In this document: positions 2,064 through 16,649 of the stretch, in pieces
Numbering within the stretch: position 1 is the stretch's first letter
Layout: each line of letters opens with the position of its first letter
Source of the DNA: Kutzneria kofuensis
GTDB lineage: Bacteria > Actinomycetota > Actinomycetes > Mycobacteriales > Pseudonocardiaceae
Direction: 5' to 3'
NCBI RefSeq assembly: GCF_014203355.1
Contig: NZ_JACHIR010000001.1
Span: 5,272,038 to 5,336,037 of the forward strand
Length of the DNA stretch: 64,000 nucleotides
Notes under the pieces: model-generated
Seen by the model: the letters and a program-made list of their open reading frames with translations, nothing else
Databases searched by the model: none
What the model was told of the DNA's origin: nothing
Translations under genes and position numbers: made by a program

Positions 2064-3900
2064 GTGCGCACCGACCTCATCAAGCCACTGCCCGTCGCAC
2101 TCCAGGTGAACGCGTCCCGCTTCCCCGGCAAGGTGGCTTTCGAGGACGACCGGCGGGCGGTCACCTACGCCGAACTCGACGCGCGCACGCGCAGGCTGGC
2201 CGGGCACCTGGCCGGCCTGGGCGTGCGCCGCGGCGACCGGGTGGCCATCTGCCTGCGCAACACGGTGTCCACTGTGGAGTGCTACCTGGCCGTCGTGCGC
2301 GCCGCCGGCATCGGGGTGCCGCTCAACCCGGCCTCCTCGCTGGCCGAGCTGGAGTACCTGCTGTCCGACAGCGGCGCCACGGTGGTCATCACCGACGCTG
2401 CGCAGGCCGAGCGGTTCCGGGTTTCGAACGTCACGGTGCTGGTGACGGGTGACGCCCCGACGGGAACGCTCTCGTACGACGAACTCGCCACCACCGAGCC
2501 GACCGAGGCGGCCCGGGACGACCTGGATCTCGACGACGTGGCGTGGATGTTCTACACGTCGGGCACGACCGGCCGGCCCAAGGGCGTGCTGTCGACGCAG
2601 CGCAACTGCCTGACGTCGGTGGCTTCCTGCTACGTGCCGATCCCCGGGCTGAGCGAGCAGGACCGGGTGCTCTGGCCACTCCCGTTGTTCCACAGCCTTT
2701 CCCACATCGCCTGCGTTCTGTCGGTCACGGTGGTCGGCGCGACCGCGCGGATCCTGGACGGCGGCGCGGTGCAGGACGTGATCCGAGCGCTCCGCGAGGA
2801 GGAGCCGACCTTCCTCGCCGGCGTGCCGACGACGTACCACCACCTCGTGACGGCCGCCCGCCGGGACGGATTCTCCGCGCCCAGCCTGCGTATCGGCCTG
2901 GCCGGCGGCGCGGTCCTCGGGGCCGGGCTGCGCCGGGAGTTCGAGGAGACCTTCGGCGTCCCGCTGATCGACGCCTACGGCAGCACCGAAACCTGCGGCG
3001 CCATCACCATGAACCCGCCGGACGGCCTTCGCGTCGACGGCTCCTGCGGCCTGCCGGTGCCGGGCGTCGGCGTTCGCATCGTCAACCCCTCCACCGGGCT
3101 GGACATGCCGGTCGGCGAGGAGGGCGAGGTGTGGGTCAAGGGGCCGAACGTCATGGTCGGCTACCACAACAGCCCGGAGGCGACCGCCGCCGCGATGCGG
3201 GACGGCTGGTTCCGGACCGGCGACCTGGCCCGCCGCGACGAGAACGGCTACTTCAGCATCTGCGGCCGGATCAAGGAGCTGGTGATCCGCGGTGGGGAGA
3301 ACATCCACCCGGCCGAGGTGGAGGCGGTCGTTCGCGCCGTCCCGGGTGTGGTGGACGTGGCGGTGGCCGGGCTGCCGCACGACACCCTCGGCGAAGTTCC
3401 CGTCGCCTATGTGATTCCCGGTCCCGACGGCTTTGACGCTCAGGCACTGCTGGCCGCCTGCCGGGAGCAGTTGTCGGCGTACAAGGTGCCCGAGCAGGTT
3501 CGTGAGGTGGAGAGCATTCCCCGGACGGCTTCGGGCAAGATCCAGCGTCGCCTGCTGGCGGAGCAGCCGAGCCGGCTGGTGTACGCGGCGACCGAGTACG
3601 ACAACGCGCCGGTGAGCGAGCCGGACGCGGTCGTGGCGGAGGCCCTGCGCCAGCGCCTGTCTGGTGTGGACGGTTTCCTGCTGGAGGACCTGGTTCGGGA
3701 ACTGGCCGCCGAAGTGCTGGGGCAGCCGGTTCCGGCCGACCGTGCCTTCCGCGACCTGGGCTTCAGCTCGGCGGCCATTGTCGAGCTGCGCAACCGGCTG
3801 ACCGCGGCCACCGGGCTGCGGCTGCCCGCCGCTGTCGTCTTCGACCACCCGACCCCGATGGCGCTGGCCGGTTTCCTGCGGGCGGAGCTCCTCGGCGACG
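2064..3900 (+). other. RifA loading module: adenylation (CoA-ligase-like) domain and acyl carrier protein
   Basis: The adenylation domain has the phosphate-binding motif FYTSGTTGRPKG (residues 163-174), the GSTE motif (about 306), WFRTGDL, and a C-terminal catalytic lysine in SGKIQRR (Lys492). This is the aryl/acyl-CoA ligase architecture used in rifamycin-type PKSs to activate AHBA as an adenylate. It replaces the KSQ-AT loading domains of typical macrolide PKSs. The following carrier protein has LGFSSAAIVEL, with the phosphopantetheine serine at residue 569. The usual GFDS is GFSS here. There is no ketosynthase or AT before the first extension KS at residue 627. Confidence 0.93.
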
Positions 3901-6900
3901 CGCGGCCGGTGGTCGAGACGATCACCGCCGCCGACCCGGACGAGCCGATCGCCATCGTGGGCATGGCCTGCCGCCTGCCCGGTGGCGTGGCCGGGCCGGA
4001 CGATCTGTGGCGGTTGGTGGCCGACGGAGTCGACGCCGTCTCCGACTTCCCCGACGACCGAGGGTGGGACCTGGACCGGCTGTTCGACCCCGACACCGAG
4101 CGCCCCGGCACTTCGTACACGAACAAGGGCGGCTTCCTCAGCGAAGCCGGCATGTTCGACGCCGGCTTCTTCGGGATCTCGCCACGTGAGGCGCTGGCGA
4201 TGGACCCGCAGCAGCGGTTGCTGCTGGAGACGTCGTGGGAGGCGTTCGAGGCCGCCGGTGTCGATGCGACGTCGTTGAAGGGCAGCGATGTCGGCGTGTT
4301 CGTCGGTGTCTTCGGTCACGGCTACGGCGTCGGCGTTGACCTGCCGGAGCTGGAGGGCTTTGCCACCACCGGGTCGGCGTCGAGTGTGGCGTCGGGACGA
4401 CTGTCCTATGTGTACGGCTTCGAGGGCCCGGCGGTCACCGTCGACACGGCGTGTTCGTCGTCGCTGGTGGCGATGCACCTTGCCGCGCAGGCGTTGCGGC
4501 AGGGCGAGTGCTCGATGGCGCTGGCCGGTGGCGCCACCGTGATGGCCACGCCGGGAACCTTCGTGGAGTTCTCCCGGCAGCGGGCCCTGGCCCCCGACGG
4601 CCGGTGCAAGGCGTTCGCCGCTGCGGCCGACGGGACCGGCTGGGCCGAGGGCGCGGGCGTCGTTGTGCTGGAACGGCTGTCGGTGGCCCGTGAGCGTGGG
4701 CACCGGGTGCTGGCGGTGCTGCGGGGTTCCGCCGTTAACCAGGATGGTGCCTCCAACGGTCTGACCGCCCCGAATGGCTTGTCCCAGCAGCGGGTCATCC
4801 GCCGGGCGCTCGCCGCCGCCGGACTCGCGGCGTCCGATGTGGACGTTGTCGAGGCGCACGGCACCGGTACGTCGCTGGGCGACCCGATCGAGGCGCAGGC
4901 TCTCGTTGCCACCTATGGACAGCGGGACGCCGAGCGGCCGCTGTGGTTGGGGTCGTTGAAGTCCAACATCGGTCACACGCAGGCGGCCGCCGGGGTCGCC
5001 GGTGTGATCAAGATGGTTCAGGCGCTGCGGCACGGGGTTGCGCCGGCGACCTTGCACGTGGATGCGCCCACGCCCGAGGTGGACTGGTCCGCCGGGGCCG
5101 TGGAGTTGTTGACCGAGGCCCGCGAGTGGCCCCGGAACGGGCGCCCGCGTCGTGCGGGCGTGTCGTCGTTCGGCGTCAGTGGGACGAATGCGCACGTGAT
5201 CCTGGAGGAGGCTCCCGAGGAGCCGGCCGCCGCCGAGGCCGCTGTGGACGGCGTCTTCCCGCTGGTGGTGTCGGCGCGGAGCACCGAGTCGCTGGCGGCG
5301 CAGGCCAGCCGGCTAGCCACCGTTGTTGAGAACAACGAGCTTTCGGCCGTGGCCGGGGCGTTGGTGTCGAAGCGGGCGGTGCTAAGCGAGCGGGCCGTTG
5401 TGGTAGCGGGTTCCCGCGAGGAGGGGCTGGCCGGCTTGACCGCGCTGGCCCACGGTGAGCACTCGCTGACCGGCAGCGCGGACGTGCCGGGCAAGCTGGT
5501 CTGGGTGTTCCCGGGCCAGGGCACGCAGTGGGCCGGCATGGGCCGGGAACTCCTGGATTCCTCGCCGGTCTTCGCCGAGCGGGTGGCCGAGTGCGCCGCC
5601 GCGTTGGAGCCGTACACCGACTGGTCGCTGGTCGACGTGCTCCGTGGCGACGCCGAGCCCGAACTGATGGAGCGGGTCGACGTGCTGCAGCCCGCCTGTT
5701 TCGCCGTGATGGTCGGTCTGGCGGCGGTGTGGTCGTCGGTCGGTGTGAAGCCCGACGCCGTGATCGGTCACTCCCAGGGGGAGATCGCCGCCGCGTGCGT
5801 GTCCGGGGCGCTGTCCCTTGAGGATGCGGCGAAGGTGGTTGCCCTGCGCAGCCAGGCCATCGCCGCCAAGCTGTCTGGTCGCGGCGGCATGGCTTCCGTC
5901 GCGCTGAACGAAGAAGACGCTCTGGCCCGGTTGCAGCCGTGGGCCGGCCGGGTCGAGGTCGCCGCGGTCAACGGGCCGTCCTCGGTGGTGATCGCCGGGG
6001 ACGCCGAGGCGTTGGACGAGGCGCTGAAGTCGTTGGAGGCCAGCGAGATCAGGGTGCGGCGAGTCGCGGTGGACTACGCCTCGCACACCCGGCACGTCGA
6101 GGACATCGAGGAGACACTGGCCGAGACCCTGGCCGGGATCGAGGCCCGTACGCCGGCCATCCCGTTCTACTCGACGGTGACCCGCGAGTGGAACGAGGTC
6201 GTCGACAGCGGCTACTGGTACCGGAACCTGCGCAACCGGGTCGGCTTCGGGCCGGCGGTCACGGACCTGGTCGAACTCGGGCACCGCATGTTCGTGGAGA
6301 TCAGCGCCCACCCCGTGCTGGTGCAGCCGATCACCGAGATCCCGGGCGTGGTGGCCAGCGGTTCGCTGCGGCGCGAGGAGGGCGGCCTGCGCCGGCTGCT
6401 GACCTCGATGGCCGAGCTGTTCGTACGGGGCATCGCCGTCGACTGGGCGGCGCTGCTGCCGCCGGTGGCCGGCTGGGTGGACCTGCCGACCTACGCCTTC
6501 GACCGCCAGCACTACTGGCTCAACCCCACGCAGTCGACCGATGCGGCGTCGCTGGGGCAGGCGACGGCCGATCACCCGCTGCTGGGCGCGGTCGTCAGCC
6601 AGCCCGACTCGGCCGGCTTCACGGCCACCTCGCGGTGGTCGCAGCGGTCGCACTCGTGGCTGGCGGAGCACGTCGTCGGCGACGGCGTCCTGGTGCCGAA
6701 CGCGACCCTGGTCGAACTGGCCATCCGGCTCGGCGACCTGGCCGACGCTCCCGTGCTCGACGAACTGACCGTCGACGCGCCGGTGGTGCTGCCGCTGCGC
6801 GGCGGCCGGGACATCCAGGCCGTCGTGGGCGAGCCCGACCAGACGCGGCGGCGGACCGTGCAGATCTACTCTCGCGCGGCGGACGCCCCGCTCGATGCGC

Positions 6901-9900
6901 CGTGGACCCGTCACGCGCACGGCACGCTGGCTCCAACGACCACCACGGCGACGCTGGAAACCGGTGCTGGCACCGAGATCAGCCTGAACGGCCTCCGCGA
7001 CGCCGACCGCTACGGCCTGCACCCCGCGCTGCTCGACGCCGCCGTCCGCATGATCCTCCCCGCCGGCACGCTGCCGTCGGTGTGGACCGGCGTGACCCTG
7101 CTGGCCTCGGGCGCGGCTGCGGTGCACGTGTCGGAGCGGGGCGACGGCCTCGCGCTGACCGACGGCGCCGGGCAGCCGGTCATGACCATCGGCGGGATCG
7201 TGGCAGCGCCCTACGAAGGCGCGAGCACGTTGCCGCACGACTCCCTGTTCCGCATCGAGTGGACGGAACTCCCGCTCTCCACAGTGGACGGTCTGCTCGA
7301 CATCGTGCCGATCACGACCGCGGAGGACGTTGCCGCGGCGGGAACTCCGTACTTTCTGCTGTACGAAGCCATTCCCGGCAGCCCGAGGGAGTCGGTCAAC
7401 GCCGCGCTGGCGGTGCTGCGGGCCTGGCTGGCCGAGCCGGCTCTGGCCGACACCCGGCTGGCCGTCGTCACCGGGGACGCCGACGAGCTCGGAGCGGCGG
7501 CGGTGTGGGGCCTGGTGCGGTCGGCCCAGTCGGAGCACCCGGGCCGGATCGTGCTCGCCGACCTCGACGACAACGCAGCGCTAGCGGCCGTTCTGACCAG
7601 CGGCGAACCGCAGCTGCGGGTGCGCAACGGCGTCGCAACGGTGCCGCGCCTGGCCCGCGTCACCCCCGACCAGACGCAGCGGCCGCTCGATCCGAACGGC
7701 ACCGTGCTCATCACCGGCGGCACCGGCACTCTCGGCGCCATCGCCGCCCGGCACCTCGTCACCAAGCACGGCATCCGGCACCTGGTGTTGGCCAGCCGCC
7801 GGGGCCACGCCCCGGAGCTGTACGACGAGTTGACCGCCCTCGGCGCGACGGTCACCATCGCCGCCTGCGACACCGCCGACCGGCCGCAGGTCGAGGCCGT
7901 CCTGGCGAACATCCCGGCCGAGCATCCGCTCACCGCCGTCCTGCACACCGCCGGTGTCCTGGACGACGGCGTGCTCACGGAACTGAGCCCCGCCCGCGTC
8001 GACACCGTGCTGCGGCCCAAGGTCGACGCCGCGCTCCACCTGCACGAACTCACCCGCGACCTCGACCTCGCCGCGTTCGTGCTGTTTTCCTCGGCAGCTG
8101 GCGTGCTGGGCAACCCCGGGCAGGCCAACTACGCGGCGGCCAACGCCTGCCTCGATGCCATCGCCCGCCAACGGCACCGCGAAGGCTTGCCGGCGGCCTC
8201 GATCGCCTGGGGCTACTGGTCGACGGTCAGCGGCATGACCCAGCACCTGGGCACCGCGGACCTGCACCGCAACAAGCGAACCGGCATGAGCGGTCTGTCC
8301 GCTGACGAGGGCATGGCCCTGCTGGACGCCACCCTGACCGCCACCGACACGTTCGTGGCGGCGAAGTTCGACGTGCCGGCGCTGCGCCGCGCGGCGGCGG
8401 CCGGCGAGTCGCTGCAGCCGCTGTTGCGTGGCCTGGCCCCGTCCCCGCGACGGACGGCGAAGGCTGCGGGCTCGCTGTCGCTGGCGGACCGCCTGGCCGG
8501 CCTGGCCGACGCCGAGCAGGCCGAGGCGGTGCTGGACCTGGTCCGCAAGCACGCCGCCGAGGTCCTTGGGCACGCCTCCGCCGACGCCGTGCACCCCGGC
8601 CGCACGTTCAAGGACGCCGGCTTCGACTCGCTGACGGCGGTGGAGCTGCGCAACCGGCTGGCCGCCGCGACCGGGCTCACCCTGTCGCCGGCGATGATCT
8701 TCGACTACCCGAAGCCGCTCGCGCTGGCCGAGCACCTCCGTACCAAGCTCCTCGGCGGTGCCTCGCAGCACTCGGTGCAGGCGTCCGTCGCCACCGACGA
8801 GCCGATCGCGATCGTGGCGATGGCCTGCCGGTTCCCGGCCGGCGTGCACAGTCCCGAGGACCTGTGGCGAGTGGTGGCCGACGGGACCGACGCCGTCACG
8901 GAGTTCCCGGCCGACCGCGGCTGGGACACCGACGGTCTGTACCACCCCGATCCCGACCACGAGGGCACGACCTACGTCCGCCACGGCGCGTTCCTCGACG
9001 ACGCCGCCGGATTCGACGCCGCCTTCTTCGGCATCTCGCCGAACGAGGCGTTGGCGATGGACCCGCAGCAGCGCCTGCTGCTGGAGACCTCGTGGGAGGC
9101 CTTCGAGCGGGCCGCTATCGACCCGACTTCGCTGGCCGGTCAGGACGTCGGAGTGTTCGTCGGCGTCAACAGCCACGACTACAGCATGCTCATGCAGCGG
9201 GCGGCCGGTGTTGAGGGTTTCCGCCTCACCGGCAGCTCCGGCAGCGTGATCTCCGGCCGCGTGGCCTACCACTTCGGCTTCGAGGGGCCGGCCATCACGG
9301 TCGACACGGCTTGCTCGTCGTCACTGGTGGCGCTGCACATGGCCGCGCAGGCGCTGAACCGCGGCGAGTGCTCGATGGCCCTGGCCGGTGGCGTGATGGT
9401 GATGGGCACCGTCGAGACCTTCGTCGAGTTCTCCCGGCAGCGCGGCCTCGCGCCCGACGGCCGGTGCAAGGCGTTTGCCGACGGCGCGGACGGCACCGGC
9501 TGGTCCGAGGGCGTCGGCCTGCTGCTGGTGGAACGGCTGTCCGACGCTCGCCGGAACGGCCACCAGGTGCTGGCCGTGGTGCGCGGCAGCGCGGTCAACC
9601 AGGACGGCGCGTCGAACGGCCTGACCGCGCCGAACGGTCCGTCGCAGCAGCGGGTCATCCGCAGGGCGCTGGCCAACGCCGGACTGTCCACTTCGGACGT
9701 CGATGCCGTCGAGGCGCACGGCACCGGCACGACGCTCGGCGACCCGATCGAGGCCGAGGCGCTCATCGCGACCTACGGCCAGGACCGGGCCGAGCCGCTG
9801 TGGCTGGGGTCGGTGAAGTCGAACATCGGCCACACGCAGGCGGCCGCCGGTGTGGCCGGCGTGATCAAGATGGTCATGGCGATGCGGCACGGCGTTCTGC

Positions 9901-12900
9901 CGCGGACACTGCACGTGGACCAGCCGTCGTCCAATGTGGACTGGTCGGCGGGAAGCGTCGAACTGCTGACCGAAGCCCGGGACTGGCCGGCGACCGGCCG
10001 TCCGCGCCGGGCCGGCGTGTCGTCGTTCGGCATCGGCGGCACCAACGCGCACGTGATCATCGAAGAGCCACCGCTGGACGAATCGCCAGAACTCCGCGAG
10101 GTCGCGCCGTCCTCTGGAGCCGCGGGCCGGGAAAATCGCGTCTTTTCAGCGGTTTTTCCGGACAAGGCGAAGAGGGCGGATCGGAGCGACCTCGCCCCGC
10201 CCGGTACGGGCGGAGAAGGCACTGTGACGACCACCTCCGAACCGGAGCCGAGCGGCTTCCCGGTGCCGGTGGTCCTGTCGGCGCGGACCGCCGCCGGGCT
10301 GCGCGGCCAGGCCGGCCGGCTGGCCCGGTTCTTCGCGGACAGCGAGGGCGTGGGCGTGGCCGACGCCGCCCACGCCCTCGTCACCACCCGTGCCCACCTC
10401 GACCACCGCGCGGTTGTCCTGGCCACCGACCGGGACGAGCTCTGCGCGGACCTGAGCGCGATCGAGGGCGGCAAGGAGAGCCCGGCGGTCGTGACCGGCG
10501 CGCCGGTCACGGGCAAGGTGGCGATCCTGTTCACCGGCCAGGGCAGCCAGTGGGCCGGCATGGGCCGGGAACTGGCCGAGACCTTCCCCGTCTTCCGTGA
10601 CGCCTTCGCCACCGCTTGCTCGGCCGTGGACAAGCACCTGGGTGGGCGGCCGCTGCGGGACGTGGTGTTCGACGGCGAGCTGCTCGACCAGACGATGTAC
10701 ACACAGGGCGCGCTGTTCGCCCTGGAGACGGCACTGTTCCGGCTGATCGAGTCGTGGGGCGTGCGCCCGGACCTGCTGGCCGGCCACTCGATCGGCGAGA
10801 TCACCGCTGCGCACGTCGCCGGGATGCTCGATCTGGAGCAGGCGGCCAAGTTGGTGGCCACGCGCGGGAAGCTGATGCAGAACCTGCCCGCCGGCGGCGC
10901 GATGGTCGCTGTGCAGGCGACCGAGGCCGAGGTCGAGCCGCTGCTCGCGCCGGTCGACGGCGTGGTCTGCATCGCGGCGGTGAACGGCCCCGATTCCGTT
11001 GTGCTGTCCGGCGATGAGGCGGCGGTGCTTGCGGTCGTCGCTGAGCTGCCAGGCCGCAAGACGCGGCGACTGCCGGTCAGTCACGCCTTCCACTCGCCGC
11101 TGATGGCCCCGATGCTGGACGAATTCCGTTCCGTGCTGGCGGATCTGGAGTTCCGGCCGGGGGCGCTGCCCATCGTGTCGACGCTGACCGGCGCTCCGGG
11201 TGGCCTTGACACCGTGGACTACTGGGTCGACCAGGCCCGCAACGCCGTCCGGTTCGCCGACGCCGTCACCACGCTGGGCGAGCTCGGCGCGACGACGTTC
11301 CTGGAGATCGGCCCGGGCGGGGCGCTGGCGGCGATGGCGCTCGGCGTGCTCGGCGGGCCGGAGCAGAGCTGCCTCGCCGTGCTTCGCAAGGACGGCAAGG
11401 AAAGCGCCGACGTCGTCGCCGCGGTCGCCGGGCTGCACGTGCGGGGCGTGGACGTCGACTGGACGGCGCTGCTGGGCCGGCGCAACGCCGTCGAGCTGCC
11501 GACCTATGCGTTCCAGCACCAGCGCTACTGGGTGGAGACCGAACCCGTTGCCGTATCGACGGTTCGCCCCGTGATCGAGCAGGACGATCCGGCCGGTGAC
11601 GCGTTCGCGGACCGGTTGGTCGGGCTGGCGGAGGTCGAGCAGCTGCGGGTCGTGATGGACCTGGTCCGGGCGAGCACGGCGATCGTGCTCGGGCATCGCG
11701 AGGCGGACGCGTTCGACGAGGAGCAGTCGTTCAAGAGCCTCGGCTTCGACTCGCTGAGCGCGGTCAAGCTCCGCAACCGCTTGCAGGACTTCACCGGCGT
11801 GAGCCTGCCGACCACGCTGGTGTTCGACTACCCGACGCCGGCCGTGCTCGCCGCCCACCTGCGGGCCGAACTCCTCGGTGAGCGCCGGGAAGTCGCCGCG
11901 ACGACTGCCCCGGTGACGACCGACGAGCCGATCGCGATCATCGCGATGAGCACCCGGCTGCCCGGCGGCGCGGACACGCCCGAGGAGCTGTGGAACCTGG
12001 TGGTGGAGGGCCGGGACGCGATCGCCGGCTTCCCGGTCGACCGCGGCTGGGACCTCGACGGCCTGTACCACCCGGACCCGGCCAACCCGAACACCAGCTA
12101 CACCCGCTCGGGCGGATTCCTGTACGACGCCGCGCAGTTCGACGCCGGCCTGTTCGGGATCTCGCCGCGCGAGGCGCTGGCGATGGACCCGCAGCAGCGG
12201 CTGCTGCTGGAGACGTCGTGGGAGGCGCTGGAGCGGGCCGGCATCAACCCGTTGTCGGTCAAGGGCAGCGACATCGGCGTCTTCACCGGCATCGTCCACC
12301 ACGACTACGTGACCCGGCTGAACAAGGTGCCCGACGACGTGCAGGGCTACCTGATGACCGGCACCGCGTCGAGCGTGGCGTCCGGTCGTGTGTCCTATGT
12401 GTTCGGTCTGGAGGGCCCGGCGGTCACCGTCGACACGGCGTGTTCGTCGTCGCTGGTGGCGATGCACCTTGCCGCACAGGCGTTGCAGCGCGGCGAGTGC
12501 TCAATGGCGTTGGCCGGCGGCGCGACCGTGATGGCCAGCCCCGACGCCTTCCTGGAGTTCTCCCGGCAGCGCGGCCTGTCGGCCGACGGCCGCTGCAAGG
12601 CTTATGCGGAGGGTGCGGACGGCACCGGCTGGTCCGAGGGCGTCGGCGTTGTGCTCATGGAGCGCCTGTCGGTGGCGCAGGAGCTCGGGCATCCGATCCT
12701 GGCCGTGCTGCGCGGTTCCGCAGTCAACCAGGACGGTGCCTCGAACGGCCTGACCGCGCCCAACGGCCCGTCGCAGCAGCGGGTGATCCGCCAGGCGTTG
12801 GCCGCCGCCGGCCTCAAAGCGTCCGATGTGGACGTTGTGGAGGGCCATGGCACCGGGACGTCACTCGGCGACCCGATCGAGGCGCAGGCTCTGCTGGCCA

Positions 12901-15900
12901 CGTATGGGCAGCGGGATCCCGAGCACCCGTTGTGGCTGGGGTCGTTGAAGTCCAACATCGGTCACACGCAGGCGGCCGCCGGTGTCGCCGGTGTGATCAA
13001 GATGATTCAGGCGCTGCGGCACGAGGTGCTGCCGGCGACCCTGCACGTCGAGACGCCGACGACCCAGGTCGACTGGTCGGCGGGCGCGGTGCGGGTGCTC
13101 ACCGAGGCCCGGGAGTGGCCGCGCAACGGCCGTCCGCGTCGGGCCGCCGTGTCCTCCTTCGGCGCCAGCGGCACCAACGCGCACGTGATCCTGGAGGAGG
13201 CTCCCGAGGAGCCGGCCGCCGCCGAGACCGCTGTGGACGGCGTCATTCCGTTGGTGGTGTCGGCGGGAACTTCCGCCGCACTGGCGGGGCAGGCCGGCCG
13301 GCTGGTGTCTTTCCTCAAGGGTTCCGGCTTGTCGCCGGCCTCGGTGGCCGGCGCGCTGCTCTCCGGCCGGGCGATGCTCGCCCAGCGGGCCGTGGTCGTG
13401 GCGGGCTCGACGGACGAGGCGCTGGCCGGGCTGAACGCGTTGGCCCGTGGCGAGAATGCGCCGGCGCTGGTGACCGGCAGTGTGGATGTGCCGGGCAAGG
13501 TCGTGTGGGTGTTCCCGGGCCAGGGCTCGCAGTGGGTGGGCATGGGCCGTGAGCTGCTCGACGCGTCGCCGGTGTTTGCGGCGCGGATCGCCGAGTGCGC
13601 GGCCGCGTTGGAACCGCACATCGACTGGTCCCTTGTGGACGTTCTGCGCGGCGACACCGCCCCGGAGATGCTGGAGCGCGTCGATGTCCTGCAGCCGGCC
13701 AGCTTCGCGATGATGGTCGGCCTGGCGGCGGTGTGGTCCTCGGTCGGCGTCAAGCCCGACGCCGTGGTTGGTCACTCGCAGGGCGAGATCGCCGCCGCCT
13801 GCGTGGCCGGGGCGTTGTCGCTGGCTGACGCGGCAAGGGTGGTTGCCCTGCGCAGCCAGGCCATTGCCGCGAAGTTGTCCGGTCGCGGCGGCATGGCTTC
13901 GGTGGCGCTGGCTGAAGAAGACGCTTCGAGCCGGTTGCTCCCGTGGGCGGACCGGGTCGAGGTGGCGGCGGTGAACAGCCCGTCCTCGGTCGTGGTAGCC
14001 GGTGACGCCGAGGCGTTGGACGAGGCCCTGAAGACCCTGGAGAGCCAGGGAGTTCGCGTGCGGCGGGTGGCGGTGGACTACGCCTCCCACAGCCGTCACG
14101 TCGAGGACATCCAGGCCGCGCTGGCGGAAACCCTGGCCGGGACCGAAGCCCAGGCGCCGGCGATCCCGTTCTACTCGACGGTGATCGGGGAGTGGATCCG
14201 CGACGCGGGGATCGTCGACGGCGCCTACTGGTACCGGAACCTGCGCAACCAGGTCGGCTTCGGGCCGGCGGTGGCGAGCCTGGTCGAGCAGGGGCACGGG
14301 GTGTTCGTGGAGCTCAGTGCCCACCCGGTGCTGGTGCAGCCGATCACCGAGATCACCGACGGCCTGGTGGCCGGCTCGCTGCGCCGCGACGACGGCGGCC
14401 TGCCGCGGCTGCTGGCGTCGATGGCCGAGCTGTTCGTGCGGGGCATCGCCGTCGACTGGACGTCGATGGTGCCGGCGGCCGGGCGCGTCGATCTGCCGAC
14501 CTACGCCTTCGAGCACCGGCACTACTGGCTGCACGAGGCCGAGACCACCGACGAGACGGTTGCGGCCGAGGGCGCGGACTCCGACTTCTGGTCCGCGGTC
14601 GAGCACTCCGACCTGGACTCCTTGGCGTCACTGCTGGAGTTGGGGGCCGACCAGCGCACTGCGCTGACCACGGTTGCCCCGGTGCTGGCGGACTGGCGGA
14701 AGAAGCGCCGCGAGAGCTCGTCCGCGGAGAAGCTGCGCTACAACGTCACCTGGCAGCCGCTCGACCGGGAAGCCGCCGGCGTGCCCGGCGGGCGCTGGCT
14801 CGTCGTCGTGCCGGCGGGGCACCAGGACGACGCCCTGCTGGCCGAGCTGACCGGGCAGGGACTCGACCTGGCAGTGCTGGAGGTCGGTGACCGCACCCGG
14901 GAACACATCGCCGGCCTGGTTCCCGACCACGACCTGAGCGGCGTGCTGTCCCTGCTGGCGCTGGACCCGCAGCCGCAGGACCCGACCACGGTCGCGGCGA
15001 CGACGCTCGCGCTCGTCCAGGCTTTGGGCGACCGTAACGTCACTGCCCCGCTGTGGTGCGTGACCCGGGGTGCGGTCAACATCGGCATCCAGGACGCGGT
15101 CACCGCGCCGGCCCAGGCGGCGTTGTGGGGCCTCGGCCGCGCCGTGGCGTTGGAGCGCCTCGACCGTTGGGGCGGCATGGTCGACCTGCCGGCGTCCAGT
15201 GACGCGCGCACGGCGCAGAGCCTGCTCGGTGTGCTGACGGGCGCCTCCGGTGAGGACCAGCTCGCGATCCGGCGGTCCGGCGTCTACGGCCGGCGGTTGG
15301 TCCGCAAGCCCGTGCCGGAGACCTCGGCCGACAGCCGTTGGCAGCCGCGGGGAACGATCCTGGTCACCGGTGGCGCCGAGGGCTTTGGCCGGCATGCGTC
15401 CGTCTGGCTTGGACTGTCCGGAGTGGACCGACTCATCGTCACGACCACCGCGCACGCGCCGGAGGACTGCGTGGCGAACCTACGGGCCGAGCTGGCCGGC
15501 CTCGGCGTCGACACGGTGGTGGAGACCTGCGCCGACACTGACCGGGACGCGATCACGGCGCTGGTGTCCGCGGCGAAGGTCTCGGCCGTCGTGCACACCG
15601 CCGACATCACGCAGACCAGTGCCGTCGACGACACGAGCCTGAGTGACCTCGCCGGGGTCTTCGGGGCCAAGGTCGACACCGCCCTGTGGCTGGACGGGCT
15701 GTTCGAGGACACGCCGCTCGACGCGTTTGTGGTGTTCTCCTCGATCGCCGGCGTGTGGGGCGGTGGCGGCCAGGGGCCGTCGGCCGCGGCCAACGCCGTG
15801 CTCGACGCGTTGGTCGAATGGCGGCGGGCGCGGGGCCTGCGGGCGACGTCGATCGCCTGGGGCGCGCTGGACGAGGTCGGCGTGGGCATGGACGAGGCGA

Positions 15901-16649
15901 CGCTGAACCAGTTGCGCCGCCGAGGCGTGCTGCCGATGGCGCCGCCGCTGGCCGTGACGGCGATGGCGCAGGCGGTGCGGGGCAACGAGAAGTTCGTATC
16001 GGTTGTGGACATGGACTGGGGCGCCTTCATCCCCGCCTTCACGTCGGTTCGCCCGAGCCCGCTGTTCGCCGACCTGCCCGAGGCGAAGGCGGCCCTGGCG
16101 GCGTCGCAGCCCGACGCCGAGAATAGCGACACGGCCGCGTCGCTGGCCGACTCCCTGCGGGGCGTCGCCGACGGCGAGCAGAACCGCATCCTGCTCAGGC
16201 TGGTCCGCGGGCACGCCTCGACGGTCCTCGGCCACAGCGGGGCGGAGGGCATCGAGCCGCGGCAGGCCTTCCAGGAGGTCGGCTTCGACTCGCTGGCGGC
16301 GGTGAACTTCCGCAACAGCCTGCAGTCGGCCACCGGACTGAAGCTGCCGGCGACCCTGATCTTCGACTATCCGACGCCGGAGTCACTCGTCGGCTACCTG
16401 CGTGAGGAGTTGTTGCGGGAGCCCGAGGACGACTTTGCTGGACGGGAGGACGAACTGCGGCGGGTGTTGGCCGCGGTGCCGTTCGACCGGTTCCGCGAGG
16501 CGGGGGTGCTGGAGACCCTGCTGGGACTGGCCGACGCGGAACCGGCGGCGGACGTCCCGGCGGCGGTCCCGGCGGCGGCCGACGACGAGCTGATCGACGA
16601 GCTGGACATCGCCGCTCTTGTCCAGCGCGCGCTGGGCAAGACGAGCTGA
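2064..16649 (+). CDS. rifA: RifA: ansamycin PKS, AHBA loading module and extension modules 1-3
   Basis: Encodes 4861 residues from the GTG at 2064, preceded by AAAGGA at 2047-2052. Domain order is A-ACP / KS-AT-DH*-KR-ACP / KS-AT-ACP / KS-AT-KR*-ACP / C-terminal docking (asterisks mark domains that look dead). The adenylation domain loads AHBA. Modules 1-3 then add a methylmalonyl, a malonyl and a methylmalonyl unit, giving the chain that is cyclised to the naphthalenic core. The C-terminus (about residues 4800-4861) has a helical stretch (FDRFREAGVLETLL) and an acidic tail (DELIDELDIAALV) like that of RifB, a docking partner for the N-terminal coiled coil of RifB. The gene is followed after 33 bp by rifB. 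The module 2 linker carries an odd in-frame insertion (separate entry). Confidence 0.97.
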   Translation: MRTDLIKPLPVALQVNASRFPGKVAFEDDRRAVTYAELDARTRRLAGHLAGLGVRRGDRVAICLRNTVSTVECYLAVVRAAGIGVPLNPASSLAELEYLLSDSGATVVITDAAQAERFRVSNVTVLVTGDAPTGTLSYDELATTEPTEAARDDLDLDDVAWMFYTSGTTGRPKGVLSTQRNCLTSVASCYVPIPGLSEQDRVLWPLPLFHSLSHIACVLSVTVVGATARILDGGAVQDVIRALREEEPTFLAGVPTTYHHLVTAARRDGFSAPSLRIGLAGGAVLGAGLRREFEETFGVPLIDAYGSTETCGAITMNPPDGLRVDGSCGLPVPGVGVRIVNPSTGLDMPVGEEGEVWVKGPNVMVGYHNSPEATAAAMRDGWFRTGDLARRDENGYFSICGRIKELVIRGGENIHPAEVEAVVRAVPGVVDVAVAGLPHDTLGEVPVAYVIPGPDGFDAQALLAACREQLSAYKVPEQVREVESIPRTASGKIQRRLLAEQPSRLVYAATEYDNAPVSEPDAVVAEALRQRLSGVDGFLLEDLVRELAAEVLGQPVPADRAFRDLGFSSAAIVELRNRLTAATGLRLPAAVVFDHPTPMALAGFLRAELLGDARPVVETITAADPDEPIAIVGMACRLPGGVAGPDDLWRLVADGVDAVSDFPDDRGWDLDRLFDPDTERPGTSYTNKGGFLSEAGMFDAGFFGISPREALAMDPQQRLLLETSWEAFEAAGVDATSLKGSDVGVFVGVFGHGYGVGVDLPELEGFATTGSASSVASGRLSYVYGFEGPAVTVDTACSSSLVAMHLAAQALRQGECSMALAGGATVMATPGTFVEFSRQRALAPDGRCKAFAAAADGTGWAEGAGVVVLERLSVARERGHRVLAVLRGSAVNQDGASNGLTAPNGLSQQRVIRRALAAAGLAASDVDVVEAHGTGTSLGDPIEAQALVATYGQRDAERPLWLGSLKSNIGHTQAAAGVAGVIKMVQALRHGVAPATLHVDAPTPEVDWSAGAVELLTEAREWPRNGRPRRAGVSSFGVSGTNAHVILEEAPEEPAAAEAAVDGVFPLVVSARSTESLAAQASRLATVVENNELSAVAGALVSKRAVLSERAVVVAGSREEGLAGLTALAHGEHSLTGSADVPGKLVWVFPGQGTQWAGMGRELLDSSPVFAERVAECAAALEPYTDWSLVDVLRGDAEPELMERVDVLQPACFAVMVGLAAVWSSVGVKPDAVIGHSQGEIAAACVSGALSLEDAAKVVALRSQAIAAKLSGRGGMASVALNEEDALARLQPWAGRVEVAAVNGPSSVVIAGDAEALDEALKSLEASEIRVRRVAVDYASHTRHVEDIEETLAETLAGIEARTPAIPFYSTVTREWNEVVDSGYWYRNLRNRVGFGPAVTDLVELGHRMFVEISAHPVLVQPITEIPGVVASGSLRREEGGLRRLLTSMAELFVRGIAVDWAALLPPVAGWVDLPTYAFDRQHYWLNPTQSTDAASLGQATADHPLLGAVVSQPDSAGFTATSRWSQRSHSWLAEHVVGDGVLVPNATLVELAIRLGDLADAPVLDELTVDAPVVLPLRGGRDIQAVVGEPDQTRRRTVQIYSRAADAPLDAPWTRHAHGTLAPTTTTATLETGAGTEISLNGLRDADRYGLHPALLDAAVRMILPAGTLPSVWTGVTLLASGAAAVHVSERGDGLALTDGAGQPVMTIGGIVAAPYEGASTLPHDSLFRIEWTELPLSTVDGLLDIVPITTAEDVAAAGTPYFLLYEAIPGSPRESVNAALAVLRAWLAEPALADTRLAVVTGDADELGAAAVWGLVRSAQSEHPGRIVLADLDDNAALAAVLTSGEPQLRVRNGVATVPRLARVTPDQTQRPLDPNGTVLITGGTGTLGAIAARHLVTKHGIRHLVLASRRGHAPELYDELTALGATVTIAACDTADRPQVEAVLANIPAEHPLTAVLHTAGVLDDGVLTELSPARVDTVLRPKVDAALHLHELTRDLDLAAFVLFSSAAGVLGNPGQANYAAANACLDAIARQRHREGLPAASIAWGYWSTVSGMTQHLGTADLHRNKRTGMSGLSADEGMALLDATLTATDTFVAAKFDVPALRRAAAAGESLQPLLRGLAPSPRRTAKAAGSLSLADRLAGLADAEQAEAVLDLVRKHAAEVLGHASADAVHPGRTFKDAGFDSLTAVELRNRLAAATGLTLSPAMIFDYPKPLALAEHLRTKLLGGASQHSVQASVATDEPIAIVAMACRFPAGVHSPEDLWRVVADGTDAVTEFPADRGWDTDGLYHPDPDHEGTTYVRHGAFLDDAAGFDAAFFGISPNEALAMDPQQRLLLETSWEAFERAAIDPTSLAGQDVGVFVGVNSHDYSMLMQRAAGVEGFRLTGSSGSVISGRVAYHFGFEGPAITVDTACSSSLVALHMAAQALNRGECSMALAGGVMVMGTVETFVEFSRQRGLAPDGRCKAFADGADGTGWSEGVGLLLVERLSDARRNGHQVLAVVRGSAVNQDGASNGLTAPNGPSQQRVIRRALANAGLSTSDVDAVEAHGTGTTLGDPIEAEALIATYGQDRAEPLWLGSVKSNIGHTQAAAGVAGVIKMVMAMRHGVLPRTLHVDQPSSNVDWSAGSVELLTEARDWPATGRPRRAGVSSFGIGGTNAHVIIEEPPLDESPELREVAPSSGAAGRENRVFSAVFPDKAKRADRSDLAPPGTGGEGTVTTTSEPEPSGFPVPVVLSARTAAGLRGQAGRLARFFADSEGVGVADAAHALVTTRAHLDHRAVVLATDRDELCADLSAIEGGKESPAVVTGAPVTGKVAILFTGQGSQWAGMGRELAETFPVFRDAFATACSAVDKHLGGRPLRDVVFDGELLDQTMYTQGALFALETALFRLIESWGVRPDLLAGHSIGEITAAHVAGMLDLEQAAKLVATRGKLMQNLPAGGAMVAVQATEAEVEPLLAPVDGVVCIAAVNGPDSVVLSGDEAAVLAVVAELPGRKTRRLPVSHAFHSPLMAPMLDEFRSVLADLEFRPGALPIVSTLTGAPGGLDTVDYWVDQARNAVRFADAVTTLGELGATTFLEIGPGGALAAMALGVLGGPEQSCLAVLRKDGKESADVVAAVAGLHVRGVDVDWTALLGRRNAVELPTYAFQHQRYWVETEPVAVSTVRPVIEQDDPAGDAFADRLVGLAEVEQLRVVMDLVRASTAIVLGHREADAFDEEQSFKSLGFDSLSAVKLRNRLQDFTGVSLPTTLVFDYPTPAVLAAHLRAELLGERREVAATTAPVTTDEPIAIIAMSTRLPGGADTPEELWNLVVEGRDAIAGFPVDRGWDLDGLYHPDPANPNTSYTRSGGFLYDAAQFDAGLFGISPREALAMDPQQRLLLETSWEALERAGINPLSVKGSDIGVFTGIVHHDYVTRLNKVPDDVQGYLMTGTASSVASGRVSYVFGLEGPAVTVDTACSSSLVAMHLAAQALQRGECSMALAGGATVMASPDAFLEFSRQRGLSADGRCKAYAEGADGTGWSEGVGVVLMERLSVAQELGHPILAVLRGSAVNQDGASNGLTAPNGPSQQRVIRQALAAAGLKASDVDVVEGHGTGTSLGDPIEAQALLATYGQRDPEHPLWLGSLKSNIGHTQAAAGVAGVIKMIQALRHEVLPATLHVETPTTQVDWSAGAVRVLTEAREWPRNGRPRRAAVSSFGASGTNAHVILEEAPEEPAAAETAVDGVIPLVVSAGTSAALAGQAGRLVSFLKGSGLSPASVAGALLSGRAMLAQRAVVVAGSTDEALAGLNALARGENAPALVTGSVDVPGKVVWVFPGQGSQWVGMGRELLDASPVFAARIAECAAALEPHIDWSLVDVLRGDTAPEMLERVDVLQPASFAMMVGLAAVWSSVGVKPDAVVGHSQGEIAAACVAGALSLADAARVVALRSQAIAAKLSGRGGMASVALAEEDASSRLLPWADRVEVAAVNSPSSVVVAGDAEALDEALKTLESQGVRVRRVAVDYASHSRHVEDIQAALAETLAGTEAQAPAIPFYSTVIGEWIRDAGIVDGAYWYRNLRNQVGFGPAVASLVEQGHGVFVELSAHPVLVQPITEITDGLVAGSLRRDDGGLPRLLASMAELFVRGIAVDWTSMVPAAGRVDLPTYAFEHRHYWLHEAETTDETVAAEGADSDFWSAVEHSDLDSLASLLELGADQRTALTTVAPVLADWRKKRRESSSAEKLRYNVTWQPLDREAAGVPGGRWLVVVPAGHQDDALLAELTGQGLDLAVLEVGDRTREHIAGLVPDHDLSGVLSLLALDPQPQDPTTVAATTLALVQALGDRNVTAPLWCVTRGAVNIGIQDAVTAPAQAALWGLGRAVALERLDRWGGMVDLPASSDARTAQSLLGVLTGASGEDQLAIRRSGVYGRRLVRKPVPETSADSRWQPRGTILVTGGAEGFGRHASVWLGLSGVDRLIVTTTAHAPEDCVANLRAELAGLGVDTVVETCADTDRDAITALVSAAKVSAVVHTADITQTSAVDDTSLSDLAGVFGAKVDTALWLDGLFEDTPLDAFVVFSSIAGVWGGGGQGPSAAANAVLDALVEWRRARGLRATSIAWGALDEVGVGMDEATLNQLRRRGVLPMAPPLAVTAMAQAVRGNEKFVSVVDMDWGAFIPAFTSVRPSPLFADLPEAKAALAASQPDAENSDTAASLADSLRGVADGEQNRILLRLVRGHASTVLGHSGAEGIEPRQAFQEVGFDSLAAVNFRNSLQSATGLKLPATLIFDYPTPESLVGYLREELLREPEDDFAGREDELRRVLAAVPFDRFREAGVLETLLGLADAEPAADVPAAVPAAADDELIDELDIAALVQRALGKTS
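3942..8760 (+). other. PKS module 1: KS-AT(methylmalonyl)-DH(decayed)-KR-ACP
   Basis: The KS has catalytic Cys797 in DTACSSS and the histidine motifs EAHGTGT and SNIGHTQ. The AT has GHSQGE (Ser1237) and YASH at 1338-1341, the methylmalonyl signature. The DH looks inactive. Its HxxxGxxxxP motif reads HVVGDGVLVP from His1536, with Gly replaced by Asp at 1540. The block that normally carries YGPxFQG is missing, and the HPALLDAA motif is followed by V-R instead of L-H/Q. The KR is intact: GGTGTLG near 1886, Tyr2023 in NYAAANA, and LDD, a B-type KR. ACP Ser2189. Loss of dehydration here fits the oxygenated ring carbon expected in the naphthalenic core. Confidence 0.9.
8799..11890 (+). other. PKS module 2: KS-AT(malonyl)-ACP, no reduction
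   Basis: The KS has Cys2417 in DTACSSS. The AT has GHSIGE (Ser2909) and HAFH at 3007-3010, the malonyl-CoA signature, and clearly belongs to a different AT lineage from the methylmalonyl ATs of this cluster (ATRGKLMQ in place of ALRSQAIA after the serine). The ACP follows the AT almost directly, with Ser3230 in LGFDSLSAV. No KR or DH is present, so the beta-keto group is kept for the aromatic cyclisation. Between KS and AT the linker is about 50-55 residues longer than in other modules because of the inserted element at about 10084-10245. Confidence 0.92.
10096..10195 (+). repeat. Foldback (palindromic) element inserted in frame in the RifA module 2 KS-AT linker
   Basis: GCGAGGTCGC at 10096-10105 is matched by its exact reverse complement at 10186-10195. 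Inside lie CCGGGAAAA (10127-10135) and TTTTTCCGG (10153-10161), a second near-complementary pair. Just after it is CCGCCCG-GTA-CGGGCGG, a perfect 7-bp hairpin. The translation (residues near REVAPSSGAAGREN and FSAVFPDKAKRADR) has no counterpart in the linkers of the other nine modules, and the DNA has unusual A and T runs for this gene. The surplus keeps the reading frame. It looks like a small palindromic mobile or repetitive element tolerated between domains, similar in style to protein-coding palindromic elements in other bacteria. Confidence 0.6.
11925..16649 (+). other. PKS module 3: KS-AT(methylmalonyl)-KR(inactive)-ACP and docking tail
   Basis: The KS has Cys3460. Its N-terminal signature reads IIAMSTRLPGG, with Thr where the other modules have Cys (not a catalytic site). 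The AT has GHSQGE (Ser3905) and YASH from 4006: methylmalonyl. There is no DH. The KR is degenerate: the cofactor loop is GGAEGFG, near residue 4437, instead of GGTGxLG. The catalytic tyrosine is replaced by Ser4573 (QGPSAAANA where others have GNYAAANA), and the LDD region reads ADITQTS. ACP Ser4743. A dead KR leaves the keto group needed for ring closure, as in the known rifamycin module 3. Confidence 0.92.

Follow-up and report, generated by a model that had tools for sequence, protein, structure and literature searches.

The insert in the RifA module 2 linker

The window, a 64,000-nt stretch of the Kutzneria kofuensis genome (10,435,448 bp in 5 contigs; G000), carries a modular PKS gene which we take to be rifA, the name given to it by the original prediction (Table 1). 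After GTNAHVIIEE, the KS-AT linker of module 2 contains a palindromic element read in frame, with codons 10095-10214 translating as REVAPSSGAAGRENRVFSAVFPDKAKRADRSDLAPPGTGG; as predicted, no stop codon interrupts the insert, and the frame is open across the whole gene. The distance between the KS and AT motifs is 494 residues in module 2 vs 442-453 residues in seven other modules (8 of 10 modules were measured, those in which both motifs were found), a surplus of 41-52 residues that upholds the predicted lengthening of the linker, though its size does not quite equal the proposed 50-55 residues. Similarly, the element had been placed at 10084-10245; the location stands, while the element proper is somewhat smaller, its end being set at the 3' hairpin by the element-free sites of other copies.

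Table 1. Coordinates of the rifA insert and its parts in the window, and of the PKS genes in a second Kutzneria genome (G004) that carry related copies
Feature	Position	Strand	Basis or remark
rifA-like modular PKS ORF carrying the insert	2064..16649	+	module 2 matches PDB PKS KS-AT chains
Palindromic element proper, 118 bp, in frame	10096..10213	+	covariance-model match, alignment, translation
Outer stem P1, 5' arm GCGAGGTCGC	10096..10105	+	
Outer stem P1, 3' arm GCGACCTCGC	10186..10195	+	
Second stem P2, 5' arm CCGTCCTCT	10107..10115	+	
Second stem P2, 3' arm AGAGGGCGG	10171..10179	+	
Apical stem, 5' arm	10125..10139	+	
Apical stem, 3' arm	10149..10163	+	
Separate 3' hairpin CCGCCCG-GTA-CGGGCGG	10197..10213	+	
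12-nt tail AGAAGGCACTGT, fits consensus CRWRRNMACWGY beside the 3' hairpin	10214..10225	+	72-copy profile, element-free sites
G004 PKS gene with a full in-frame copy	L216 9594-15572		after GTNAHVIVEE, rifA phase
Adjacent G004 PKS gene with a 61-nt, internally deleted form	L216 4683-9587		after GTNAHVIIEE, rifA phase
G004 2062-aa PKS ORF with a 5'-truncated copy (3' part)	C1:3690453		after GTNAHVILEE, rifA phase

The 10-bp outer arms lie where they had been predicted and are exact complements, with complementarity extending to 14 nt at 93%, and the flanking 7-bp hairpin (arms 10197-10203 and 10207-10213) is indeed perfect. In most aligned copies of the element this hairpin reads CCGCGCG-NNN-CGCGCGG, and the rifA version is a compensated change. 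The fold of 10090-10226 beats 200 of 200 dinucleotide shuffles (z of -4.3 with RNA parameters and -3.8 with DNA parameters). The codon usage of the insert is foreign to rifA, in agreement with the foreign A/T runs that had been reported: GC3 is 0.698 in the insert (10095-10223) vs 0.919 over rifA, and 26 of 4818 rifA windows of 43 codons have GC3 as low, insert-overlapping windows counted among them.

The insert is absent from the relatives closest to the module, so that the comparison with orthologues that had been proposed as a check comes out in favor of the prediction. The PDB chain 11sz_A, deposited under the name DEBS/EryA2, aligns on both sides of the insert and has three residues where the window has 52, a surplus of 49; since it scores 1503 bits vs 887 for the next PDB chain, it is probably a chimera carrying a module orthologous to RifA module 2. 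Likewise, a locus of Amycolatopsis sp. CA-126428 (L032) has a KS that is 91% identical and no insert, giving a surplus of ~53 codons (1080-nt match for a 413-residue query).

In an AlphaFold model built with 27 aligned sequences (mean pLDDT 86.9), the insert has a pLDDT of ~30, and residues 431-484 fall below 50 between strands 417-424 and 491-497; because the aligned relatives lack the insert, low pLDDT is expected there in part. As modeled, the insert is probably an unfolded, floppy loop of ~50 residues between well-folded domains.

A dispersed family, its stems and its putative target site

A BLAST search with 10070-10260 as query returned nine further matches at E<1e-6 in the same genome and a weaker series below them, in keeping with the dispersed copies that had been proposed as support for a small palindromic repeat turned protein. 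A covariance model built from an alignment of 36 copies matches the rifA copy with 136 bits (10096-10225), the only convincing match within the window (the next has E 0.32), and finds 46 matches at E<1e-3 in the whole genome. Across the genus, at E<=0.01, the model returns 55 matches in this genome, 122 in G001, 19 in G002, 64 in G003, 77 in G004 and 24 in K. viridogrisea (G006; L078 is from K. viridogrisea DSM 43850), a total of 361 matches in six of seven Kutzneria genomes, some of them opposite strands of one palindrome. Five of the six sister genomes thus have 19-122 matches, and the sixth, the 4.7-Mb G005, has none at this threshold. In a draw of 200 genomes from the family, the model matches 18 at E<=0.001, and these represent 6 of 46 genera; in a draw of 397 genomes from the order the seven with matches at E<=1e-4 all belong to the family of the window. 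Plasmid and phage records gave no element match at blastn level.

Of the 361 genus matches, 133 + 23 copies were inspected. The family layout has an outer and a second stem, then an internal loop (in its common form GGA/GA) and an apical hairpin of variable form, followed by the separate 3' hairpin; four inspected copies from other genera (L171-L174) keep this layout. Full copies span ~110-150 bp without the tail, a dispersed palindromic repeat of ~100-150 bp as in elements of the RPE (Rickettsia palindromic element) kind; counting the tail, matches to long forms measure 144-162 nt, and the most reduced forms retain just two hairpins. Two copies consist of the 3' part only (C1:265610 in the same genome and a G004 PKS copy), which hints at 5' truncation. 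At L289 5611-5650, a 5'-truncated copy with just the 3' arm and 3' hairpin lies one base past a stop codon.

The consensus fold of the 36-copy alignment has 43 pairs, 27 of which show double compensatory changes that keep pairing. Pair cells are paired in 98.3% of cases vs 83.8% in shuffles and 28-42% in slid structures, and 200 cells have a change on both sides vs 59.5 in shuffles; the structure was derived from the same alignment as was tested, which gives it an advantage over slid versions, but hardly of the observed degree. None of 500 shuffles reached the observed value for pairing or for two-sided changes. Of the 1544 pair cells, 1492 hold a Watson-Crick pair and 25 a G-T pair, which leaves 27 with neither.

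In three pairs of intergenic copies, taken as orthologous on the grounds of flanking ORFs and flank sequence, there are eight two-sided changes, no one-sided change and one broken pair; the corresponding numbers are 16, one and five in another three pairs whose flanks resemble each other (L159/L118, L144/L134 and L144/L136). The six pairs together, a small sample, hold 24 base pairs changed on both sides, one changed on one side and six broken. The flanks and junctions of L159 (this genome) and L118 (G003) are alike and their inner subtypes differ by 12 double changes, as would be expected had one copy replaced another at this site. Two one-sided (G-T) changes and a single two-sided one separate the rifA copy from the full PKS copy of G004. 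Because changes are mostly two-sided, this small sample favors a process in which the hairpin templates its own correction, or in which one copy replaces another, and speaks less for slow compensation as the way in which the stems may change. The element stems offer a test case for selection on structure vs hairpin-templated correction of DNA.

In a profile of 72 copies, the 12-nt stretch after the 3' hairpin fits CRWRRNMACWGY, beyond which information is at background, and the base preceding the element is C or T in 69 of the 72. Without L216, L113, L130 and L235 there were 94 rows, of which 22 from K. viridogrisea were set aside and the other 72 make up the profile; for one of these copies (L181) the script picked the wrong hairpin. 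Element-free sites were compared for seven of ten loci prepared. The element present at C1:4395487 in this genome is missing from the corresponding places in five sister genomes; the tail (CATTAA.CTC) is present in four of the five element-free sister sites and altered in G006. Similar tails stand in the element-free sites corresponding to C1:1523589 (in G001) and C1:795590 (in G002), and G003 also has a copy between the flanks matching the latter site (C1:2234274). The places matching C1:5259670 (in G001) and C1:4964382 (in G002 and G003) are element-free as well, and too diverged for the tail to be read. As the tail stands in element-free sites, we conclude that it is target DNA lying outside the element.

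The original prediction called the element mobile. Mobility is probable from several places at which one species has the element and the matching place of at least one other species lacks it. At E<=1e-5, no Y1/RAYT transposase (PF01797) was found in the seven Kutzneria genomes, the control search giving matches in 5 of 14 named genomes. Additionally, six places with partial matches were examined for an autonomous long element with the same ends and showed no convincing far left end; they hold minimal, degenerate or 5'-truncated copies, with ORFs listed for one of them.

Coding copies and the PKS linkers

The genomic context was counted for 133 copies in five genomes with our own codon-usage ORF caller rather than a standard gene finder, leaving out K. 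viridogrisea and the G004 PKS copies (L113, L216) and counting one copy twice. Of the 133 copies, two (rifA and L337) are contained entirely within an ORF and 12 share >15 nt with one, 116 nt of a weak ORF in the case of L193; with so few copies in genes, coding insertions are rare. The second coding copy sits whole and in frame in a D-serine-deaminase/alanine-racemase-type ORF of G001 (L337 232-1635, minus strand, contig C23; PF14031, PF01168), which has 46 residues where its homologue PDB 3gwq has eight, and it is read in the same phase as in rifA. Both rifA, compared with 11sz_A, and L337, compared with 3gwq, are thus in-frame insertions in unrelated protein genes whose homologues lack them. 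This phase is open in 54 of 67 short-form copies vs 22-42 for each of the other five phases, so stop-free read-through is a property of the family and not a rare accident. Four different genes of G001 (L315, L316, L317 and L319) end inside the element and thereby have much the same C-terminal tail, RSRRxLDRxLxSIESxHRSS.

We consider it very probable that the extra residues of RifA module 2 come from a dispersed, non-autonomous palindromic repeat, a copy of which entered the KS-AT linker and now yields a translated loop of ~50 residues. Insertion would have taken place in the phase that is open in most family copies, and the loop would follow the final KS strand and precede the linker domain that leads to AT; it would be disordered, and RifA would tolerate it with no or little effect on catalysis. 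That the KS-AT linker is an ordinary one which happens to be long in this lineage, and that its inverted repeats arose by chance, has next to no probability: KS-AT linkers do vary in length (a Lentzea PKS has 165 residues between the KS and AT motifs vs 171 in RifA module 2), but the dispersed copies of the same fold refute this reading, and covariation, foreign GC3 and the closest module relatives without the insert likewise speak against it.

Three PKS genes of G004 carry related copies at the same junction (Table 1). The four PKS copies resemble one another in tail and phase, and in the two neighboring G004 genes the junctions are similar on either side. The rifA copy groups with the full G004 copy as its sister (support of 0.93 with 67 copies and 0.87 with 121 copies), and both have the P2 subtype, which among 156 screened copies occurs once, in rifA, and is otherwise found in L113, the full G004 PKS copy. 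Moreover, these two copies are 94% identical over 118 nt, vs 77% for the adjoining KS ends; the KS end of rifA module 2 is 80-85% identical to those of five compared modules of its own cluster. We read the sister copies, the common P2 subtype and the difference between 94% and 77% identity as passage between linkers: after entry into one PKS linker, the insert may have spread among KS-AT linkers by recombination among PKS genes. Two protein-search matches, the PKS linker at G004 C1:2240393 and C1:330015 in the genome of the window, were found not to be the element.

The main rival to linker-to-linker passage is that one sublineage of the element hit each PKS linker independently, the linker carrying a preferred target. 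We regard such independent hits as possible but doubtful. The same identities, 94% between the rifA and G004 copies vs 77% between the adjoining KS ends, would also suit separate insertions, and the PKS tails fit the general target consensus. Against this, none of 155 other screened copies from the 361 genus matches has the P2 subtype that the two full PKS copies share, tails and phase agree in all four PKS copies, and the junctions of the two neighboring G004 genes are similar on both sides.

Possible functional constraint and relation to known palindromic repeats

Alternatively, selection may maintain each copy primarily because it works as a structured RNA or DNA site, the rifA copy still doing so in the mRNA; we judge this improbable, although several observations are in its favor. 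Covariation is very strong, pairing at matching sites has mostly survived the divergence of the species, and placement between ORFs is tight, with 59 of the 125 copies that have two flanking ORFs lying within 60 nt of the ORFs on both sides. In K. viridogrisea most copies are farther from ORFs. A terminator role was considered: convergent neighbors (32) are twice as numerous as divergent ones (16), raw counts taken without a genomic expectation, but neighboring genes show every one of the four arrangements (43 same, 34 opposite, 32 convergent and 16 divergent). Several sites are element-free in other species, and the 24 two-sided changes vs one one-sided change and six broken pairs are more like hairpin-templated correction or copy replacement. 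G-T pairs account for only 25 of 1517 standard pairs, a share that is low for a selected RNA. A known structured RNA family was rejected as a candidate, since a search of 12 loci gave no Rfam match on the element, all six matches at E up to 5 lying elsewhere. One Rfam model, the ASpks antisense RNA, scores above its gathering score inside the KS coding DNA of rifA (L001 1181-1249, minus strand), possibly as KS homology only.

An assembly or contamination artefact can be dismissed almost entirely, since the same structure at the same junction recurs in a second, one-contig genome (G004, 11,609,901 bp).

For insertion of the repeat into the linker, a structure-dependent process acting on single strands, or templated by RNA, would choose the 12-nt target abutting the 3' hairpin. 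More speculatively, and with considerably more doubt than confidence, the family might represent a class of mobile repeat new to science, dependent on structure, present in Pseudonocardiaceae and mobilized neither by RAYT/IS200 nor by a MITE-type transposase, in which the 3' hairpin would be anchored to the 12-nt target and the stems changed on both sides by a DNA-level hairpin process, and which would have become a self-standing, linker-to-linker KS-AT module of PKS evolution in Kutzneria.

The phenomenon resembles the RPE, which are reported as palindromes of 105-146 bp present in many copies, both between genes and, in frame, within protein genes that are unrelated to one another; an enzyme bearing such a palindrome is active (PMC2229807, PMC10969869). 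The element is like RPE and the coding palindromes of Wolbachia in its small size, palindromy, copy number and in-frame coding insertions, a likeness by description and not by RPE sequence. In contrast to these, its hosts belong to a different phylum with different GC content, it has a separate 3' hairpin and an adjoining 12-nt target motif, its copies are mostly intergenic, and its host genes include modular PKS. The original prediction, which held such palindromes turned protein to be known in few bacterial groups, was too narrow: REP-type palindromes beyond Rickettsia and Wolbachia occur inside coding regions of different organisms, according to a report whose text does not mention Actinobacteria (PMC3733652). 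Rickettsia and Wolbachia are the best-known hosts of palindromic repeats turned protein, and REP-type cases exist elsewhere; the present ones are in large, GC-rich actinobacterial genomes and in an antibiotic assembly line. Nature has here tested what length of added sequence a KS-AT linker can bear, and the insert might serve as a marker for PKS genes that have recombined; the repeat family is also one whose mobilizer can be looked for.

The repeat family is apparently undescribed, and the family and its PKS setting appear new. The predicted novelty in PKS genes stands as far as the open-licence PMC literature goes, where, among the matches listed, neither the repeat nor palindromic repeats in PKS linkers are described; in one report no repeat regions were counted for K. 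kofuensis and Kutzneria sp. CA-103260 (PMC10232511).

Other dispersed palindromes share some of these traits. MITEs have terminal inverted repeats and usually target duplications, whereas the ends of the element are not mutual inverted repeats, and target duplication is not visible at the five sites aligned, where flanks have diverged. A DDE-type MITE was rejected, the 5' end being an outer-stem arm and the 3' end a separate hairpin, with no terminal inverted repeats. ERIC sequences are ~100-150 bp long. Along with MITEs such as Correia and RUP, they are like the element in being non-autonomous, multi-copy, imperfect palindromes (PMC2229807). The GTAG- or CGTC-tagged REP/RAYT palindromes are likewise dispersed and in some cases coding; REPs measure 20-40 bp with an unpaired GTAG or CGTC at one end, whereas the element is 118 bp long, starts with GCGAGG, ends in the 3' hairpin and is untagged. 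A REP/RAYT origin was rejected by this form and, like an IS200/IS605-derived MITE, by the lack of Y1 transposase in the seven Kutzneria genomes. CGTC does occur in K. viridogrisea copies, but within the outer-stem arm. Some copies in that genome stand in tandem ~136 bp apart (L217 3066-3467, L218 3003-3267), with the outer stem GCGTCTTCGC typical of the genome and partly shared sequence downstream.
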